Positions 321-9,920 are shown, counted from the stretch's first letter. The stretch: DNA of 35,703 nucleotides from Nitrospira sp. (GCA_029881435.1 JAOUMR010000024.1:1-35703), one strand, 5' to 3'. Notes: generated by a model from the letters alone, not told the origin. Numbers and translations are program-made.

Positions 321-2633
321 ATGTCATTTCGTACATCTCGAGGTTTGGTTGTCCGGATGAGGAGGAGCCTGACTTGGTGCCTTGGAATTGCGGGGGCAGG
401 GCTCCTTGTGCTGGCAGGGTACGGATTTGTCCTCTCCACGAGCTTGGCCCTACCTAAGAGCGACGAACATCCACCGCTGCTGATCTATGGAGCGCAGTTT
501 TTTCTCACACCGGGGCTGCATCCCGTCGATGAGGGTTTGTTCGACCGTCTGCATCGCCTAGAATATAGGCCGGTCACCGCCAAACCGAAGGTCCCGGGTG
601 AGTATTTCGCGACCACGAGCTCGATTGAGATTTTTCTGCATGCTCAGGAAGAACAGCGGCTCCCTGCTCGATTAGTCAAATTGACGTTGATGAACGGTGT
701 TGTCACCGAGGTCTTGTCTGCCACTGATGGACGACCCGTCTCACTCGTGACGCTCGAACCGGTTTTGATTAGTGGAGTGCGGGCCGGGACGAAGCAGCTT
801 CGGGAATGGATTCCACTAGACCAGATACCCCCCAGCTTGATTCAGACGCTACTGACCATCGAAGATCGACGCTTTTTCTCTCATGTTGGGGTTGATCCTA
901 TTGCTATCGGACGAGCGCTTTGGACCAATATCACTCGTGGGGCAGTTGTGCAGGGTGGCAGTACACTGACTCAGCAATTGGCGAAGAATCTCTTCTACTC
1001 TCCCAAACGCACGATATGGCGAAAGTTCAAGGAGCTGGTGGCTTCGCTGGCGCTCGAATTCAAGTACCGCAAACAAGATATATTGGAAAGCTATGTCAAC
1101 GAGATCTATCTGGGCCAAGCCGGTCCCGTGTCGATCTACGGTGTGGGGGAGGCGGCCCATCGGTACTTCGGCAGACCGCTCGATCAATTGTCGATCGAGG
1201 AAATTGCGTTGATCGTCGGATTGATCAAAGGCCCCAATATCTATTCGCCAGTAAAAAACGCTGAGCTTGCGACCAAGCGTCGGGATGTGGTGCTTCACCG
1301 TTTGCGCGAAGAAGGAATCGTAACAGAGGAGTCGTTGAAAGCGGCCTTGGCTCGTCCGGTGAAGGTCATGTTGGCCGATGACGCCCTCACCGATGCCCCA
1401 TACTTTGTCGATTTCCTGCTAAAAGATATCGAGCAAGGGACCGGAGTGGTCACTCCGGAAGGGTCACGAATTTATTCGACGCTCGATTCCAGAGCGCAGC
1501 AAATTGCTGCGCAGGTTTTACAGGAAGGACTCGCCAAGCTCGAAAAGAGCCATCCCGCGTTGGCCGACGTTGAGCCGCCGCTTCAAGGAGCTGTCGTCGT
1601 ATTGGATGTGAAGCGTGGTCATGTGCTGGCGATGGTTGGCGGACGCGATTATCGAGTGAGCCAGTTCAATCGTGCGGTACAGGCGCATCGAACAGCGGGC
1701 TCTCTTTTTAAACCGTTTGTGTATTTGGCCGGCTTTGAGGCGGCTCGGGATCAAGGGGCGACTGGTCTCACGCCAGCGACATTGTTGGCAGATGAACCAG
1801 TCACATTGGAATCAGGTACGGGTCAGTGGTCGCCTCAAAATTATGACCGACAGTATCGAGGGCAGGTGACGGTTCGAACAGCGCTCGAGCAGTCATTGAA
1901 TGTTCCGGTCGTCCGAACAGCTCACCGAACGGGGATGCTGGCGCTCAGGCGCCAGCTGCAAGCCTTTGGAATTACCACTCCCTTGGCGGACAATCTGTCC
2001 CTTGCGCTTGGGAGTTCTTCCGTTTCGTTACTTGAGATCACAGCCGCGTATGCCGGGCTTGCCAATGGAGGGGTCGTGATCCGTCCCGTGGCGCTGTCCA
2101 ATATGACGCGTGAAAGGGGAGAGACGATCTGGAGTCCACCCCTGGATCGACGTCATGCGGCGACTCCTCAGGGAGCGTTCCTTGTGACCTCTCTCCTGAA
2201 AGGGGTGGTGGATCGAGGCACTGCTTCCAAGGCCAGGGCGCTTGGGGTGAGGGGGCCGGTTGCGGGCAAGACTGGGACAACGGATGGGTCTCGAGACGCC
2301 TGGTTTGTCGGATACTCGCCGGACATTGCCATTGGTGTGTGGGTTGGGTTTGATGATGAGCGAGCCCTCAAACTGACCGGTGCGCAGGCCGCCTTGCCCA
2401 TTTGGAGTGAGCTGGCCGCTCGGCTCATTCCTGGGGACCTTCCCGATTTTGAGATACCCATTGGGGTCGTTCATCGCCGGATTGATCCAAGAACGGGTCA
2501 GCTTGCGACCTCGCGATGTCCGGAGAACAGGTCAGAGTACTTCATTACAGGGACGGAGCCCAAGACCTACTGTGAAGTCCACGGGGGTGGGGTTTGGGAG
2601 CGACTGAAGCAGACATTCGACTTTTCCTCGTAG
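321..2633 (+). CDS. mrcB: Bifunctional penicillin-binding protein, class A, PBP1b type
   Basis: Peptidoglycan synthase that polymerises lipid II and cross-links stem peptides in the periplasm. A single N-terminal membrane anchor spans about residues 16-40. A region at about 65-150 resembles the UB2H domain of E. coli PBP1b. The GT51 glycosyltransferase follows, with catalytic Glu181 in EDRRFF, the QGGSTLTQQLAKNLF block at 211-225 and the second Glu261 in NEIYLGQ. The transpeptidase has the nucleophile Ser461 in SLFK, an SLN triad at 525-527 and KTGT at 650-653. All catalytic motifs are intact and 770 residues is normal for the family. PBP1b rather than PBP1a is chosen because of the UB2H-like segment and the spacing to the GT51 motif; the symbol is by homology class. 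A bactofilin gene follows 104 bp downstream on the same strand, consistent with a cell-wall/morphology cluster. Confidence 0.9.
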   Translation: MSFRTSRGLVVRMRRSLTWCLGIAGAGLLVLAGYGFVLSTSLALPKSDEHPPLLIYGAQFFLTPGLHPVDEGLFDRLHRLEYRPVTAKPKVPGEYFATTSSIEIFLHAQEEQRLPARLVKLTLMNGVVTEVLSATDGRPVSLVTLEPVLISGVRAGTKQLREWIPLDQIPPSLIQTLLTIEDRRFFSHVGVDPIAIGRALWTNITRGAVVQGGSTLTQQLAKNLFYSPKRTIWRKFKELVASLALEFKYRKQDILESYVNEIYLGQAGPVSIYGVGEAAHRYFGRPLDQLSIEEIALIVGLIKGPNIYSPVKNAELATKRRDVVLHRLREEGIVTEESLKAALARPVKVMLADDALTDAPYFVDFLLKDIEQGTGVVTPEGSRIYSTLDSRAQQIAAQVLQEGLAKLEKSHPALADVEPPLQGAVVVLDVKRGHVLAMVGGRDYRVSQFNRAVQAHRTAGSLFKPFVYLAGFEAARDQGATGLTPATLLADEPVTLESGTGQWSPQNYDRQYRGQVTVRTALEQSLNVPVVRTAHRTGMLALRRQLQAFGITTPLADNLSLALGSSSVSLLEITAAYAGLANGGVVIRPVALSNMTRERGETIWSPPLDRRHAATPQGAFLVTSLLKGVVDRGTASKARALGVRGPVAGKTGTTDGSRDAWFVGYSPDIAIGVWVGFDDERALKLTGAQAALPIWSELAARLIPGDLPDFEIPIGVVHRRIDPRTGQLATSRCPENRSEYFITGTEPKTYCEVHGGGVWERLKQTFDFSS

Positions 2634-2737
2634 CTGCATCTTCGCCACACCGTGGTGCTGGATTCCACAAACTGTTAGGTGTATTCCTGATCCTCAGGTA
2701 ACCTTGGGGGGAGACTGGCCTGCACAGAGGAGTCCCC

Positions 2738-3181
2738 ATGAAAAAGACTGGTTATGCAGACGACGGCAACATTACGCTGTTGGCAAAGGGAGTCGAACTC
2801 AGGGGTGAAATCAAGGTTGAGGGTACGGTGCGCATCGATGGACGTCTGGACGGTGAGGTGCATACGAAGGGCGAAGTAATTGTCGGCGAAGATGGAGTGG
2901 TGAAGGGATCTATCCATGCTGATTCGCTGATCAGTAGTGGACGCATCAAAGCCACGGTCACGGCCACAGGGAAAATCCAGCTCCTCAAGACCGCTATTCT
3001 CATCGGTGAGGTGCATTGCCCCGCGATGCTGATGGAGGACGGGGCGAAATTTCAAGGCGTGAGTGATATGGGTGTCACCGGCTGGCCCGAGGAAGCGCCG
3101 AAGCTGCCCAGTAATGTTCGAGATATGAACGCCCATCGTGGGAAACCCGTCGCGTTGATCGGACGAGAAGTCGACCTCTAA
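2738..3181 (+). CDS. Bactofilin family cytoskeletal protein
   Basis: Small (147 residues) polymer-forming protein of the bactofilin family (formerly DUF583). Members assemble into non-polar filaments through a right-handed beta-helix and often position cell-wall enzymes. The core at about residues 18-110 shows the short repeating beta-turn pattern (GVELRGEIKVEGTVRIDGRL and similar units rich in G, V and I/L). The N- and C-terminal tails are short and polar. GAGGAG lies a few bases before the ATG and supports the start. It follows the PBP1b gene on the same strand, so a role in placing peptidoglycan synthesis is plausible but inferred. Confidence 0.9.
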   Translation: MKKTGYADDGNITLLAKGVELRGEIKVEGTVRIDGRLDGEVHTKGEVIVGEDGVVKGSIHADSLISSGRIKATVTATGKIQLLKTAILIGEVHCPAMLMEDGAKFQGVSDMGVTGWPEEAPKLPSNVRDMNAHRGKPVALIGREVDL

Positions 3182-3328
3182 GCAAACCGCAGATTGCTTC
3201 TTCACGGTCCGCGTCCCATTCGATGGCCCTCTCACTGTCCTGCTAAGTCTTCCACCCGTGACAGAACTTGCCGGATCTGCTATCTACTCGGTGCTTCTGG
3301 TGCTTCTTAAGGGAACCCCACATCATTT

Positions 3329-4478: not shown

Positions 4479-5072
4479 CTACTCGAGCGGAATGATAATC
4501 GCGATCCCACCCATCACATCGTTCAACTTAAAATCCTGTTTCGGACTCAGCGGATGACTGTTATGACAGGTGATGCAGGCAGACGAGACGGCACGATCTG
4601 AATAAATGGCTTGGAAATATTGTTTCTTGCCGCTTGAAACAATCCCTGTGACCGGCCGATCAGGCTGTCGCTTGAGAACGTCCAATGCCTTTCGTTCAAA
4701 CTCTGTGGCAGGCGCATTACGTTGATAGATCGGGGAAAACCCGATCAGCCGGTAACGGATTCCGCTCCCGCTTTCTGCAACTAGCCGACCGGAGTGTTGA
4801 AGAAACTGGGCCGGTAAGGGCAGGGTGTTGTCTTGCTCCCACTGTTCAGTTGAAGCCACAATGCCCTTTTCTTGCAATCGGTTGACGATGTGTGAGGTGT
4901 AAAAGGTACGATCTGCTTCGAGGATGGCATGAATGTAGTCGGCGACCTTTTGCGGCGAGATACCGATTGTGGTGGGGCTCTCCTTGGCAGCGTGAAGCGC
5001 AGCCACGGTCCAGAAGCCTCCTAAGAGGAGTGCGACGGTTGCGGCTTGGAACGTGAAGCGGAAGTAGTCCAT
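4479..5072 (-). CDS. Secreted c-type haem protein, Tll0287-like/DUF3365 domain
   Basis: Predicted periplasmic or membrane-tethered haem protein of 197 residues. Residues 5-28 form a signal/anchor helix. The mature part resembles the Tll0287-like (DUF3365) fold, with a single covalent haem motif CITCH (Cys166, Cys169, His170) and the downstream segment DVMGGIAIIIPL typical of the family. The domain has a PAS-like fold and is found alone or as the sensor module of signalling proteins. The start is set at 5072 because AGGAG lies just upstream of this ATG and a signal peptide follows. A start at 5147 would add an unlikely basic leader. The gene overlaps the 3' end of the upstream kinase gene by 52 nt and is last in the operon, so it probably serves as redox or gas-ligand sensing partner to that kinase (inference). 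Confidence 0.85.
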   Translation of the reverse strand: MDYFRFTFQAATVALLLGGFWTVAALHAAKESPTTIGISPQKVADYIHAILEADRTFYTSHIVNRLQEKGIVASTEQWEQDNTLPLPAQFLQHSGRLVAESGSGIRYRLIGFSPIYQRNAPATEFERKALDVLKRQPDRPVTGIVSSGKKQYFQAIYSDRAVSSACITCHNSHPLSPKQDFKLNDVMGGIAIIIPLE

Positions 5073-7516
5073 GTGTCTCCTAGTGGAGGCGTTGAGGTAT
5101 TGATCGGAAGCGTGACGTGGCATGCTGCGCCTCGATCTTCGACGCACTCGATGCGGATATCGCCTCCGAACTTTCGGATAATGCGCCTGGCGACGGTGAG
5201 TCCAAGGCCTGAACCTTCTCCCTGTTCCTTCGTCGTAAAAAATGGGTCGAAGACTTTTGATAGGTGCTGTTTGGAGATGCCCGGCCCTGAATCGGCGATG
5301 GTGGTCGTCACCATATGGTCTGACACGACGGTTGTCAACGTCAGCGCTCCAGTGCCCTTCATGGCATGGATGGCATTGGTCAGCAGATTCACGAACGCTT
5401 GCCGCAGTTGGTCTGGGAGTACCAAGACCGGGGTATGGCCTGCGTAGGTCTTGTGGATCACGACATCGTTCATATCAACGGTGGCTTGTGCTGTGGCCAG
5501 CGCCTTGTCCAATACCTCCTCCACCGGAACCGACACCGGCTTATCCGAGGCCTCACGGTCGGTGACTCCGGTAAAATCTCGAATGATGGTGGCCATGCGA
5601 CGGCCATGAGCCACGATATCTCGGGCGTAGCTCTTGATATGCTCTAGGTCCTGTTCATCCTGAAGGATTTCTCCCAACCCAATGATTCCAAACAATGGAT
5701 TATTGAGTTCATGGCCGATTCCGGCCGTTAATACCCCGAGGCTTCCCGTCTTTTCCGCCTGGACCAGCTGGTCTTGCAGCCGGCTCTCGTCCGTAATGTC
5801 TCGAAGCACCAGCCCGATACTGTCTTCTTCGCCTGGTTTCGTGGGCAGTCGGAACCATTGATAATGGTAGATGCGTGATCCGATGGGGAGCTCAGAACGA
5901 TGACCGGCTGGTTCATGATCTGTACGAGGCTGCAGTGGGTCTCGTGGTGCCGTTTCACGCTCGATATCAGGCATTGTGGCCGACGTACCGCCGTTCATCT
6001 GGAATTCTGTTTGAAGCTGTTTCTGAACGCCTGGGTCGAGTGACAGAATCGAAAACAGCGATGTATCCGACGACGTCTCCCGGACCGAAAACGCTTCACG
6101 GGCTGTCTGATTGATGTAGCGCACGATTTGATGGGAATCGATTAAGACAATGGGAGTCGGAACGGCGTCCAAGATTTGATCCGTCGACTGCTGCAGGACC
6201 TGGAATTCTTGGGTTTTCAGCTTGACCTGGTCGGTTAGCCCTGCAAATGCGGCTTTCAACTGCGTATTCATGCGGGTGAATTCTCTCGCAAGGTCTTCCA
6301 GCTCATCGCCGGTGTTGATCTGAATCGGTGTCTGGAGCTCACCGCGCCCGATGGCCTGTGCAGCCTGTTGCAGTTGCCGGACCGGCGTCACGATACGACC
6401 TGCTGCAACGTAGCCGAGCGAGGCCAGCAGCACGATGGCGACGGCCCCGAACACCATCACCCAGGTGAGCAGATGTTGGATCGGTGCGAACAGTTCATCC
6501 GACGATTGCCAGACGAACGTGTGCCACGATCCACTGTCGATCGAGCCGTTGGTCGCCCGGCTGGTTTCCAGAAGCGGGGCAAAGCCGATGACGGAGGTCG
6601 ATTGCCCGCCGTGGCCATCGCTGGAGGCCTCCACCCAGCCAGGGTGTTGAGGGGTTACGAGTGGGGTCAAGTTTCGATCGGACAAGGGGACGCCTGTCGG
6701 AAGAATAGGGCAACTGATAACAATGCCGTTTGTGTCGATCAGCATGACGTGGCCGGTCTTGCCGAATCGAATGGCATGGGTTGAGGGGGAAAAGAATTCC
6801 TTGGCATCGATGACATGATGAAGCACGCCGACGGTTTCGTAGCGCAAGCTATCCATGATGGGGAGTGAGATCGTGAACACATAGGTGTTCACCTGGTCGT
6901 CAAAACGGATGTCTTCGATGTAGAGCTGGCCCACCGCTTTATTGAAAGCTCCTTGCCACCAACGGGTGTCCTGGTGTCTGAAAGCCGGATGGTCGGTCAT
7001 GGTGGCGACGAGTGCTCCCTGCGCATCAGTCAAGAACAGCATCTTCGTCGATGCACGGACAACCTGTGGCAGTAACTGCCCTGGTGGGCTGTACACTCCG
7101 GCATAGTATTCGTGGAGTAATGCGCTGAGTGTATTCCCTGTCAGCGATTTGAGCGCAGCAGGGTCTCGCTCTGTCCAGCGCTGTTCGAGGTCTGCGAGAG
7201 CCGATATTGAGCGTTTTGGATCGCTTGAAGCATCGCGGCGGCGTTCCAGTTCCCGAATGATCGTCGGATCATGGGCGATTCGAGCGGTATGCGAGATTTC
7301 TTCGACCACGAGGAGGTCAAGTTTGCGAGCCGCTTCTGTCGCCAGAGCCTTAAAGCTTTCTCCACTGATTTCACGGATTTCCTGAGACCCCTGCCAGAAG
7401 GCCATCCCCAAACCGACGACGAGAGGGATGATCCCCACGAGGAGCATAGACAGTATGACTTTGGTCTTGAGCCCCCATCTGGTACCAGACAGTGAGGATG
7501 TGGGCGTTGTTGTCAT
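5021..7516 (-). CDS. Membrane sensor histidine kinase with periplasmic dCache-like domain, HAMP and PAS
   Basis: An 831-residue sensor kinase. TM1 is at about 18-41, a large periplasmic domain of dCache/PDC character at about 42-345 and TM2 at about 347-373. A HAMP linker covers about 374-425, a coiled stretch 425-440, and a PAS domain about 441-575. HisKA carries phospho-acceptor His602 in GHELNNPL, and the HATPase has N714 (NLLTNAIHAM), a DSGPG motif near 742 and a GSGLGL lid near 768-773. All catalytic boxes are present. The GHELNNPL H-box is typical of HPK4-type kinases. The start codon overlaps the stop of the preceding kinase gene (ATGA, 7513-7516), indicating translational coupling. 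The 3' end overlaps the haem-protein gene. The ligand is unknown. Confidence 0.92.
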   Translation of the reverse strand: MTTTPTSSLSGTRWGLKTKVILSMLLVGIIPLVVGLGMAFWQGSQEIREISGESFKALATEAARKLDLLVVEEISHTARIAHDPTIIRELERRRDASSDPKRSISALADLEQRWTERDPAALKSLTGNTLSALLHEYYAGVYSPPGQLLPQVVRASTKMLFLTDAQGALVATMTDHPAFRHQDTRWWQGAFNKAVGQLYIEDIRFDDQVNTYVFTISLPIMDSLRYETVGVLHHVIDAKEFFSPSTHAIRFGKTGHVMLIDTNGIVISCPILPTGVPLSDRNLTPLVTPQHPGWVEASSDGHGGQSTSVIGFAPLLETSRATNGSIDSGSWHTFVWQSSDELFAPIQHLLTWVMVFGAVAIVLLASLGYVAAGRIVTPVRQLQQAAQAIGRGELQTPIQINTGDELEDLAREFTRMNTQLKAAFAGLTDQVKLKTQEFQVLQQSTDQILDAVPTPIVLIDSHQIVRYINQTAREAFSVRETSSDTSLFSILSLDPGVQKQLQTEFQMNGGTSATMPDIERETAPRDPLQPRTDHEPAGHRSELPIGSRIYHYQWFRLPTKPGEEDSIGLVLRDITDESRLQDQLVQAEKTGSLGVLTAGIGHELNNPLFGIIGLGEILQDEQDLEHIKSYARDIVAHGRRMATIIRDFTGVTDREASDKPVSVPVEEVLDKALATAQATVDMNDVVIHKTYAGHTPVLVLPDQLRQAFVNLLTNAIHAMKGTGALTLTTVVSDHMVTTTIADSGPGISKQHLSKVFDPFFTTKEQGEGSGLGLTVARRIIRKFGGDIRIECVEDRGAACHVTLPINTSTPPLGDTWTTSASRSKPQPSHSS

Positions 7517-8664
7517 GCTTCCGTCCGAGGGGTTCTCTCAGCACGTGATGGGTTACCGGGGAATGTGAGGGTAAAGGTTGAGCCTTGGCCGACGTGACTC
7601 TCGACTCCAACCACGCCCTGCATGTGCTGGATCACATTTTTGATATTATAGAGCCCCAGTCCTGTCCCCTTTCCCGGGGGCTTTGTGGTGTAGAACGGTT
7701 CAAAAATTCGAGTCAAGACTTCCGGCGCGATGCCGCAGCCGGTGTCTGAAACACGAACCTGTGTTGCGCCGGCTACAGCGGTCGTTTCTAGCGTCAGCGT
7801 ACCGTGATGCTCCATCGCTTGAACTGCGTTGGTGATCAGGTTCACGAACACGTGGAGCAGTTTATCAGGATTTCCCTTTACGAAGATGTCAGGTTGATAG
7901 CGCTTGTGAATCTCAATGTCTTGCAGTGCCACGGCATAGCGGGCGATCTTCAGGGCTTCGTCAAGCTTGCTGTTGATGTTGACGGGGCCGTCTTGCTGTA
8001 AAGACGCGCGGCGAGAGTAGGAGGTAAGGTCTCGGCAAATAGCCGTCGTCCGTTTCACGGCGTCAATGATGTCCAAGGCTTGGGCGTGCACGGTCGTGAG
8101 GTCCGTTTCTTCAGCCAGATTTTCTGCCATGCCGAGAATCAGTTGGAGTGGATTGTTCATGTCATGAGCGATGCCGGCTGCAAACGAGCCCAAACCGGCG
8201 AGCTTCTCTGCATGGAGCAATTCGGTTTGCAACGTTGATTCATGTTGGACAAGTAGCCAGAGTAGGCATGACGCCTGTCCAGTTATAATCGCAGTCCCTG
8301 GCGACCGGTGTTGCTGAAGGACGGACTCTACTGATGGATCACCGGTCACGTCCATTACAACATCGAGTGTGTGGTCCCTGAGCAGATCGGCAATCACTCC
8401 GTACACCGGCACATTCAGCTCTTGGGCTCGTTTGAGCCCTGGTGCTGAGGCATCCTTGTCGGTTATTCCCACGATCTCAATTGCCCGAATCTGATGGAGC
8501 ACCTCAAGAAGTGCGGTGCCTCCACGGCCAGCGCCGAGGATCGCAACCCTCATCGGAAGCGCGGCCAGCGACGAGGTGTCCCGCTGGGTTTTCACGCTCG
8601 AATGAGCGATGGCCGGAGATATGGCCGCCGTACCCATTCCATCCGATGGTGGCCTGTCTATCAT
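7513..8664 (-). CDS. Cytoplasmic histidine kinase with N-terminal Rossmann (NAD(P)-type) domain
   Basis: A 383-residue protein with no transmembrane segment. Residues about 38-125 form a dinucleotide-binding-type Rossmann half: beta1 and the glycine-rich loop AILGAGRGGTALL (41-53), an acidic residue at the end of beta2 (ITDKD, 67-71), and VVMDVTGDPSV (102-112) like the oxidoreductase/homoserine-dehydrogenase NAD fold. A helical linker leads to HisKA with His167 (GIAHDMNNPL) and a complete HATPase (N279 in NLITNAVQAM, DTGCGI near 307, GKGTGLGL near 331-338). No dehydrogenase catalytic domain is present, so the Rossmann part is probably a sensor for a nucleotide cofactor (inference). The ATG overlaps the stop codon of the receiver gene by 4 nt and its own stop overlaps the next kinase by 4 nt. 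Confidence 0.85.
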   Translation of the reverse strand: MIDRPPSDGMGTAAISPAIAHSSVKTQRDTSSLAALPMRVAILGAGRGGTALLEVLHQIRAIEIVGITDKDASAPGLKRAQELNVPVYGVIADLLRDHTLDVVMDVTGDPSVESVLQQHRSPGTAIITGQASCLLWLLVQHESTLQTELLHAEKLAGLGSFAAGIAHDMNNPLQLILGMAENLAEETDLTTVHAQALDIIDAVKRTTAICRDLTSYSRRASLQQDGPVNINSKLDEALKIARYAVALQDIEIHKRYQPDIFVKGNPDKLLHVFVNLITNAVQAMEHHGTLTLETTAVAGATQVRVSDTGCGIAPEVLTRIFEPFYTTKPPGKGTGLGLYNIKNVIQHMQGVVGVESHVGQGSTFTLTFPGNPSRAERTPRTEA

Positions 8665-9095
8665 AGACGCGCCAATTCTCGTTGTTCCATGGCACGACCG
8701 ACGGCAGCCTTCAATATCTCACCCTCCACCGGCTTTACGAGATAGTCCACGACGCCCTGCCGAAGGAGCGAGGTCGCCATTTCGGTGTCCGGGAACCCGG
8801 TCAAGACAATTAATGGCACACGCGGATAGTTCTCGCGAAAGTAGGCAATGGCTTCGATCCCGTTCACTTTTGGCATCCGGATGTCGCAGATCATGACATC
8901 CAGCAGGAGGCGATTTTCGCCCCAGTTGATGGTTTCAATGGCTTTCTCCCCATTCTCAGCTTCAAGCACATCGTACCCGGCTTTTTGCAGAGTCATTCGG
9001 ACGACTTTCCGGATATCTGGTTCGTCATCGACGATCAATACCCGACCATTGCAGCTCTCACCTCCGACAAAAAACCCGGACTTGAATTCGCTCAT
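8661..9095 (-). CDS. Stand-alone response-regulator receiver (CheY-like)
   Basis: Single receiver domain of 144 residues with no output domain. Acidic pocket residues Asp23/Asp24 lie in LIVDDEPDIRK, the phospho-acceptor is Asp71 in CDIRMPK, the switch Thr is in VLTGFPD (about 99), and the conserved Lys121 is in VKPVEG. The start at 9095 is favoured over an upstream ATG at 9125 because AGGAGG sits 5 nt before it. First gene of a four-gene minus-strand operon with two kinases and a haem protein. It therefore probably shuttles phosphate between the kinases or acts by protein-protein interaction; the output is unknown. Confidence 0.92.
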   Translation of the reverse strand: MSEFKSGFFVGGESCNGRVLIVDDEPDIRKVVRMTLQKAGYDVLEAENGEKAIETINWGENRLLLDVMICDIRMPKVNGIEAIAYFRENYPRVPLIVLTGFPDTEMATSLLRQGVVDYLVKPVEGEILKAAVGRAMEQRELARL

Positions 9096-9348
9096 GGCAA
9101 CCTCCTTGGTGGGAACGGATTCCATTAGGTCTCGTCATGACACAAACCCTTCGCAAAGCCGGTGCCGAAGTTGAAAGGCATGCGAGGTTCCATCTTTTCA
9201 ACAGGAAGCTGAATCAAACTTGCGCCTGCATTTCGCCGACTGGCTCAAAGGCACCACCAGGTTGGCGAAATCCACCACCGACGGATGCTCATTGCCTTTC
9301 AGGACACGTTTCAGCTAGGGTATTGAAAACACTGCTGGAGTTGATACT

Positions 9349-9588
9349 GTGATTACACCTGATGTGCTTACCGAATATATTCGCGAGAGCCTGCCGGACG
9401 CTGAGGTGACAGTGACCGATCGTACAGGGACCATGAATCACTTGAAGGTCGTCATCGTTTCCAATGGGTTCGAGGGGAAAAATCTTTTAGATCGGCACCG
9501 CCTGATCTATCAGGCCCTCGATACACCCATGAAGGATGGACGGATCCACGCATTAGAACTCACCGCTCGAACCAAAGATGAGACATAG
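9349..9588 (+). CDS. BolA/IbaG family protein
   Basis: A 79-residue BolA-fold protein. BolA proteins bind [2Fe-2S] clusters together with monothiol glutaredoxins and take part in iron-sulfur trafficking and iron regulation. The central block, with HLKVVIVSNGF (about 25-35) and the conserved RHRLIYQAL segment with its cluster-ligand His (about 44-52), is clear. The start is a GTG at 9349 with GGAG upstream. It is followed 8 bp later by a CGFT-type glutaredoxin gene, the classic BolA-Grx pairing, which supports the call. Confidence 0.92.
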   Translation: MITPDVLTEYIRESLPDAEVTVTDRTGTMNHLKVVIVSNGFEGKNLLDRHRLIYQALDTPMKDGRIHALELTARTKDET

Positions 9589-9596
9589 GAGGGGCC

Positions 9597-9920
9597 ATGG
9601 CCGACCAGATAGAAGAAGAAATCCAAAACGAAGTGAAGGCGCATAAGATTTTGATCTATGGCAAGGGGACCAAGACGATGCCGATGTGCGGGTTCACGAG
9701 GGAAACCATGCAGTTTTTCGACAAGTATGGGTACCCGTACGAACTCATCGACGTCCTGGCGCAACCGGCTAAGCGCGAGGCGCTGACGAAAATCACGAAT
9801 TGGCCGACGCTTCCTAAGGTGTTTATCGACGGCACCTTCTACGGCGATACCGACGTGCTCGATCCGATGGCCGCCAAGGGCGAGATTGAACCGCTGCTGA
9901 AAAAAGCATTTGGGAAATAG
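9597..9920 (+). CDS. grxD: Monothiol glutaredoxin, Grx4 (GrxD) family
   Basis: A 107-residue monothiol glutaredoxin that would bridge a [2Fe-2S] cluster between two monomers or with BolA, using glutathione. The active site is CGFT at 31-34, where most relatives have CGFS. The glutathione/cluster pocket shows KGT (23-25), WPTLPKVFIDG (69-79) and GDTD in place of the usual GGCD. AGGAGG precedes the ATG. It is co-transcribed with the BolA gene 8 bp upstream. The TAG stop is also the outer edge of an inverted-repeat element (9918-10040). Confidence 0.92.
   Translation: MADQIEEEIQNEVKAHKILIYGKGTKTMPMCGFTRETMQFFDKYGYPYELIDVLAQPAKREALTKITNWPTLPKVFIDGTFYGDTDVLDPMAAKGEIEPLLKKAFGK

Follow-up and report, generated by a model that had tools for sequence, protein, structure and literature searches.

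A conserved four-gene operon of Nitrospira encoding a single-domain receiver, a Rossmann-kinase, a dCache-kinase and a haem protein, a candidate two-component signalling module

A stretch of 35,703 nucleotides (nt) of Nitrospira sp. (GCA_029881435.1 JAOUMR010000024.1:1-35703), here called the window and used for all positions given without a locus number, carries on the minus strand four genes in the order receiver, Rossmann-kinase, dCache-kinase and secreted haem protein. Open reading frame (ORF) calls and domain assignments gave the following genes, with lengths in amino acids (aa) and transmembrane segments as TM:

8661..9095, minus strand: single-domain receiver, 144 aa, with the acidic pair D23/D24, the predicted phospho-acceptor D71 and no output domain (Pfam)
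7513..8664, minus strand: soluble Rossmann-kinase, 383 aa, with a Rossmann domain at about residues 37-130, HisKA with H167, and HATPase_c (Pfam, alignment, AlphaFold model)
5021..7516, minus strand: membrane dCache-kinase, 831 aa, with TM at about 15-40, periplasmic dCache, TM at about 345-375, HAMP, PAS, HisKA and HATPase_c (Pfam, hydropathy)
4479..5072, minus strand: stand-alone c-type haem Cache protein (Tll0287/DUF3365), 197 aa, predicted to be secreted or membrane-anchored (Pfam, fold match)

A preliminary description of this DNA had reported a four-gene overlapping operon with overlaps of 4, 4 and 52 nt. The recomputed ORFs gave exactly these lengths, at 8661-8664, 7513-7516 and 5021-5072, and the domains claimed for all four proteins were recovered by Pfam, thus the overlapping operon itself is confirmed. 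The haem gene starts with the ATG at 5072, and a ribosome-binding site AAGGAGG lies 5' of the receiver gene. In the receiver, Pfam finds Response_reg (97.7 bits) alone, in agreement with the absence of an output domain noted before; among the non-fused sequences D23 and D24 are invariant (62 of 62), as is D71 (63 of 63). The Rossmann-kinase has HisKA and HATPase_c behind a Rossmann part that matches DapB_N (27.0 bits, cut-off 25.6). The dCache-kinase presents HisKA, HATPase_c, HAMP (48.1 bits) and a weak PAS; its dCache_1 score of 40.2 bits is under the cut-off of 45, a sister-lineage relative reaching 74.5 bits. Pfam matches and motif counts in relatives revealed the His, N, G1 and G2 boxes of HisKA kinases, and the catalytic residues of receiver and kinases are retained in relatives. 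The only domain over the cut-off in the haem protein is Tll0287-like (PF11845, 66.4 bits, cut-off 24.1). Its N-terminus has one hydrophobic segment, and as the product of a separate gene it is fused neither to TM helices nor to a signalling module (Pfam, hydropathy).

Conservation of the operon extends over an order of bacteria related to nitrifiers. The Rossmann domain is present in 145 of 146 related genomes, and the same four genes in the same order make up each of the 29 operon-type loci retrieved for the genus and the family (L038-L065, L077). A scan of named genomes yielded 80 loci, 64 of them with a Rossmann-kinase of the operon type; the receiver is upstream in 62 of the 64, the dCache-kinase is present in 57, the haem gene in 48 and the full set in 47, among them Nitrospira moscoviensis (L100) and N. 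defluvii (L115). Contig ends truncate many of the loci without the full set. Nine named loci have the dCache-kinase without the haem gene. Seven of these end at a contig or locus edge, so that L098 and L131 are the sole two with intact flanks that truly lack it. The same order is also found in other families of the order, surrounded by different neighbour genes. The exact overlap lengths are confined to close relatives: among the 47 named four-gene loci the 52-nt overlap occurs in 17 and the 4-nt overlap of the two kinase genes in 23, and elsewhere small gaps are found, up to about 270 nt between receiver and Rossmann-kinase. The preliminary description had proposed a search for a conserved four-gene order as a check, and had named an order unique to one genome as the observation that would speak against it. 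Since the order recurs in the genus, the family and other families, this objection falls, and a chance order or a genome-specific cluster is ruled out. Domains and conserved order together support the earlier view that the Rossmann-kinase in the cytoplasm, the dCache-kinase in the membrane and the haem protein belong to a single conserved signalling module. At L131 (5225-8685), which lacks receiver and haem gene, a gene for a globin-like sensor stands, together with STAS and anti-sigma-type genes, upstream of the Rossmann-kinase.

Receiver and Rossmann-kinase occur without the other two genes in L080, L101, L106 and L145, and these two-gene units mark them as a minimal pair. In a sister lineage (L128, L133) the order is receiver, Rossmann-kinase, NtrC-type activator and dCache-kinase, this last protein being only about 30 % identical to the dCache-kinase of the operon. 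Both forms suggest that a core pair of receiver and Rossmann-kinase was later extended by the dCache-kinase and the haem gene. A close relation of the two core parts is also apparent from natural fusions, in which the Rossmann domain lies inside the receiver, between the LTG motif of strand 4 and the LVKP of strand 5, where it takes the place of part of helix 4. The reading frame of the fusions is intact and the receiver N-terminus is mostly like that of the operon receiver. They occur in many genomes, for example at these places:

L102:8680-9474, orphan receiver with inserted Rossmann domain
L067:4680-5480, orphan receiver with inserted Rossmann domain
L092:8596-9468, orphan receiver with inserted Rossmann domain
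L113:2119-2919, orphan receiver with inserted Rossmann domain
L134:1705-2634, orphan receiver with inserted Rossmann domain
L136:7612-8445, orphan receiver with inserted Rossmann domain
L250, L251 and L253-L256, orphan receivers with inserted Rossmann domain

A subtype with a predicted N-terminal membrane helix comprises L092, L134, L249 and L250. We take the fusions as evidence that the Rossmann domain acts jointly with the receiver, which is not proof of phosphotransfer. A receiver whose strands 4 and 5 are separated by a Rossmann domain is not known to us from any description, an architecture that was not searched by name. At L134 a relative of the haem protein (2457-3326) is encoded directly 3' of the fused receiver and the kinases are absent; the record is labelled as a gammaproteobacterium and may be a misbinned Nitrospirota contig. 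The genome of the window has a paralogue at L072:4858-6619 (G000:C160:4822), in which a Rossmann domain of about 40 % identity is placed on a NarX-type (HisKA_3) kinase followed by a NarL-type regulator. Kinase and regulator genes overlap and the arrangement is kept in relatives. No paper on Rossmann-type sensor kinases was found in the literature searched.

The closest sequence matches of the Rossmann domain in the PDB are acylating acetaldehyde dehydrogenase and inositol dehydrogenase, both dependent on nicotinamide adenine dinucleotide (NAD). In an alignment of 56 Rossmann sequences (A4) G44, G46, G48 and G49, D69 and a V-T stretch are invariant; the domain has the glycine motif and, with D69, the acidic residue at the end of strand 2 of NAD(P)-binding Rossmann folds. 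Because of the dehydrogenase matches, the invariant glycine motif and D69, the ligand is most likely NAD(H). An AlphaFold model of the Rossmann-kinase had a mean predicted local distance difference test score (pLDDT) of 81.6. Matches in a fold search with the full protein were dominated by kinase cores, none being informative on the Rossmann part.

The haem protein has a single CxxCH motif, CITCH at residues 166-170, with both cysteines and the histidine invariant in 44 sequences. A model built from the alignment of these sequences (mean pLDDT 76) matched best the fold of Tll0287 (5b82; Z 10.7, 141 aligned residues, root-mean-square deviation 3.5), ahead of all other rows. No relative was retrieved when the PDB was searched by sequence with the operon protein or with its profile; L221, a relative of the cysteine type, retrieves Tll0287 by sequence, with the matching cysteine in FKAVCAPVGK. 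In the joint alignment this axial-cysteine column is leucine in 44 of 44 operon haem proteins (Leu91 here), and none of their mature forms has a cysteine outside CxxCH. The axial-ligand role of the cysteine would follow, by analogy, from what a 2026 preprint (PMC12889525) describes for Tll0287 and for the corresponding cysteine in Pseudomonas putida. According to this work, release of nitric oxide (NO) is fast and behaviour redox-like in the stand-alone P. putida relative, whose ligation is Cys/His, whereas the HAMP-linked P. azotoformans relative without the axial cysteine releases NO slowly. Redox roles are given there to the stand-alone type (Cluster 1); the NO-sensor type (Cluster 2) carries TM helices and a signalling module in the same polypeptide, releases NO slowly and forms no stable oxygen complex (PMC12889525). 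The operon protein shares with Cluster 1 the stand-alone domain but not the axial cysteine, and it lacks the fusion of Cluster 2. Judged by sequence, it combines the stand-alone architecture of the P. putida type with the predicted open ligation of the P. azotoformans type. The missing cysteine likely shifts the haem signal from general redox state toward a diatomic gas such as NO, though redox state may also be read. The near-invariant H48 and the invariant Y58 and H173 could act at the haem. Many Nitrospirales stand-alone haem Cache proteins without the axial cysteine (L188-L207) were observed besides, several adjoining the gene of the ATP synthase epsilon subunit.

Two conserved features precede the receiver gene in the upstream alignment:

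9153..9167, minus strand: predicted sigma-54 -24/-12 promoter core CGGCACCGGCTTTGC with GG-N10-GC, about 58 nt 5' of the receiver ATG
9241..9259, minus strand: conserved upstream element TGGTGGTGCCTTTGAGCCA, a candidate enhancer (activator-binding) site

The alignment of Nitrospira regions upstream of the receiver shows CGGCAYNNNCYTTGC with the GG-N10-GC spacing, and the strict pattern [N]GGC[AG][CT]N5TTGC has a single match in the window. It was found in 30 of 37 upstream regions of Nitrospiraceae context against 0.07 expected from shuffling of each region, although the loci are related and do not represent 30 independent events. Five of the seven regions without the strict pattern differ just by a C as the last base. 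Between the boxes the sequence is variable but GGCA and TTGC are retained, the pattern expected of a sigma-54 promoter. Among the two-gene and sister loci three of seven have the element as well, and a scan 5' of the receiver found no sigma-70 promoter. The operon is preceded by a conserved, predicted sigma-54 promoter, and from this promoter we infer that expression requires an NtrC-type activator. The upstream element, conserved as TGGTGGTGCNTTTGAGCCA, has no exact copy elsewhere in the genome, and immediately 5' of it is a second TGGTGG block. A genome-wide regulon under this element was rejected, no other close copy being present in the genome. FNR/NNR-type sites were rejected too: the window has six one-mismatch matches against 4.4 expected, none in the upstream region of the operon. 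Over a dozen NtrC-type proteins are encoded in the genome and none could be tied to the element. One of them (L245:1846-5706, G000:C150), with a degraded receiver and 53 % identity to the activator of L133, adjoins genes for a nirK-like multicopper oxidase, a cytochrome c and a truncated globin whose start resembles a signal peptide. As no strict sigma-54 site precedes its neighbour genes it was not accepted as the activator of the operon and is kept as a lead. A queG-like gene lies upstream at L245, as it does upstream of the receiver operon in L133.

One flank of the operon holds genes of an AI-2E-type transporter and a bactofilin, the other a divergent bolA-grx4 pair. The bolA gene and that of the monothiol glutaredoxin Grx4 (window 9349-9920, plus strand) are found beside the operon throughout the family. 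As functional parts bolA, grx4 and the transporter gene were rejected, because their linkage to the operon is limited to the family, other families having the four genes in a different neighbourhood; vertical inheritance is enough to explain the linkage.

We propose that the operon encodes a sigma-54-transcribed phosphorelay module with a core of Rossmann-kinase and receiver and a periplasmic input through dCache-kinase and haem protein, a reading to which we assign a probability of about 0.5. The core part is well supported by the genomic data, the extension moderately. The soluble Rossmann-kinase would be the cognate kinase and phosphatase of the single-domain receiver. A dinucleotide on the Rossmann domain, most likely NAD(H), may set the kinase activity, and the receiver would then report the reductant state of the cell. 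The dCache-kinase and the haem protein may form a periplasmic input added later: the haem protein, without axial cysteine, would bind NO or another small ligand, or change its redox state, and so alter the dCache-kinase in trans, which in turn could add to or oppose the phosphate on the same receiver. The output may be the binding of a partner protein or onward phosphate transfer. The operon looks as if it combines a metabolic signal from inside the cell with a gas or redox signal from outside. This agrees in part with the preliminary description, which had suggested one phosphorelay reading a cytoplasmic cofactor and a periplasmic ligand or redox state, and in which the sigma-54 promoter and the missing axial cysteine did not figure. 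Several observations weigh against this proposal. The ligand of the Rossmann domain is a prediction from sequence. Outside the family the strict sigma-54 element is present in just one of 19 four-gene loci. Paralogues of the haem protein without the axial cysteine stand mostly away from signalling genes, e.g., beside ATP synthase genes, so the missing cysteine alone is no proof of a sensor role. At positions 8 and 15 after the phospho-histidine the Rossmann-kinase has Leu and Asn, the dCache-kinase Gly and Ile. Reportedly, work on HK853-RR468 found the kinase positions eight and fifteen past the phospho-histidine to matter for partner choice; a shared receiver is therefore not assured, and the differences as such appear neither to favour nor to exclude it.

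The same residues are in line with two neighbouring systems that merely share a transcript, the receiver serving only the Rossmann-kinase while dCache-kinase and haem protein act on another regulator, e.g., a sigma-54 activator of the NtrC type. Such regulators are abundant in the genome, one stands between the two kinases in L128 and L133, and the two-gene units do without a dCache-kinase. We regard this arrangement as rather unlikely, for no other receiver gene lies beside the dCache-kinase in the four-gene loci of several families, the gene overlaps suggest coordinated production, and the dCache-kinase of L128 and L133, at its low identity, may be a different kinase. Similarly improbable appears a haem protein that is merely co-expressed with the kinases and serves in the periplasm as a small carrier of electrons or scavenger of NO. 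Genomes of the order have up to 11 matches each to the stand-alone haem family, mostly away from signalling genes, and redox roles were given to the stand-alone type (PMC12889525). The operon copy, however, keeps its place directly 3' of the dCache-kinase in different families, in many cases with an overlap, while the neighbours of the paralogues are mixed, and it lacks the axial cysteine of the redox type.

A Rossmann domain that senses a non-redox ligand, e.g., a nucleotide or acyl compound, or serves dimerisation only, would agree with the sequence similarity to many Rossmann families, CoA_binding among them, which is weak in each case, and with the fact that no bound ligand is known. We consider this unlikely, as the glycine motif, the V-T stretch and the aspartate that ends strand 2, invariant over 56 sequences, are hard to explain without ligand binding. 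More specific than the phosphorelay proposed above, and doubtful for the present, is a sensor split over two compartments, in which the haem protein would signal periplasmic NO in trans to the dCache-kinase, the NAD-reading Rossmann-kinase would set the same receiver and the Rossmann domain could act directly on the receiver, as in the fused receivers. If true, nitrifying bacteria would balance stress by nitrogen oxides against the reductant of the cell in a single relay.

Nitrospira are drivers of nitrite oxidation and of complete ammonia oxidation. The module is present in nearly every examined member of the genus, hence the signal it reads is probably of central importance to these bacteria. 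No paper on Nitrospira sensing NO or the redox state via such a relay was found in the literature searched. As far as this literature shows, the module is an unnamed, conserved form of two-component signalling, consistent with the preliminary description, whose author knew of no named system with this gene set.

Several known systems share parts of it. The kinase cores score best against AtoS and the receiver against AtoC, and sigma-54 promoters occur in many operons of the NtrBC/AtoSC type; in contrast to these, the operon receiver has no AAA+ and DNA-binding parts, and two kinases are present rather than one. Spo0F, DivK and CheY are likewise stand-alone receivers with an acidic pair and a phospho-acceptor aspartate, but the operon receiver is placed in a fixed operon with the Rossmann-kinase and the haem protein, and a phosphotransferase gene is not beside it. 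The paralogue at L072 has the same Rossmann domain and overlapping genes and differs by its NarX-type core and the LuxR/NarL-like C-terminus of its regulator. The Rossmann domain inserted near the signalling face in the fused receivers is a further receiver architecture of significance. The haem protein resembles the sCache_heme/DUF3365-Tll0287 proteins of Thermosynechococcus (Tll0287), P. putida and P. azotoformans in the Cache fold, the inserted CxxCH haem site and secretion. With their redox type it shares the stand-alone form, but leucine replaces the axial cysteine; unlike their sensor type, it is encoded behind a separate dCache-kinase and not fused to it. The operon may present a haem Cache domain that works apart from the kinase polypeptide and is open to test, and a possible counter-example to the division of these proteins into stand-alone redox proteins and fused gas sensors.

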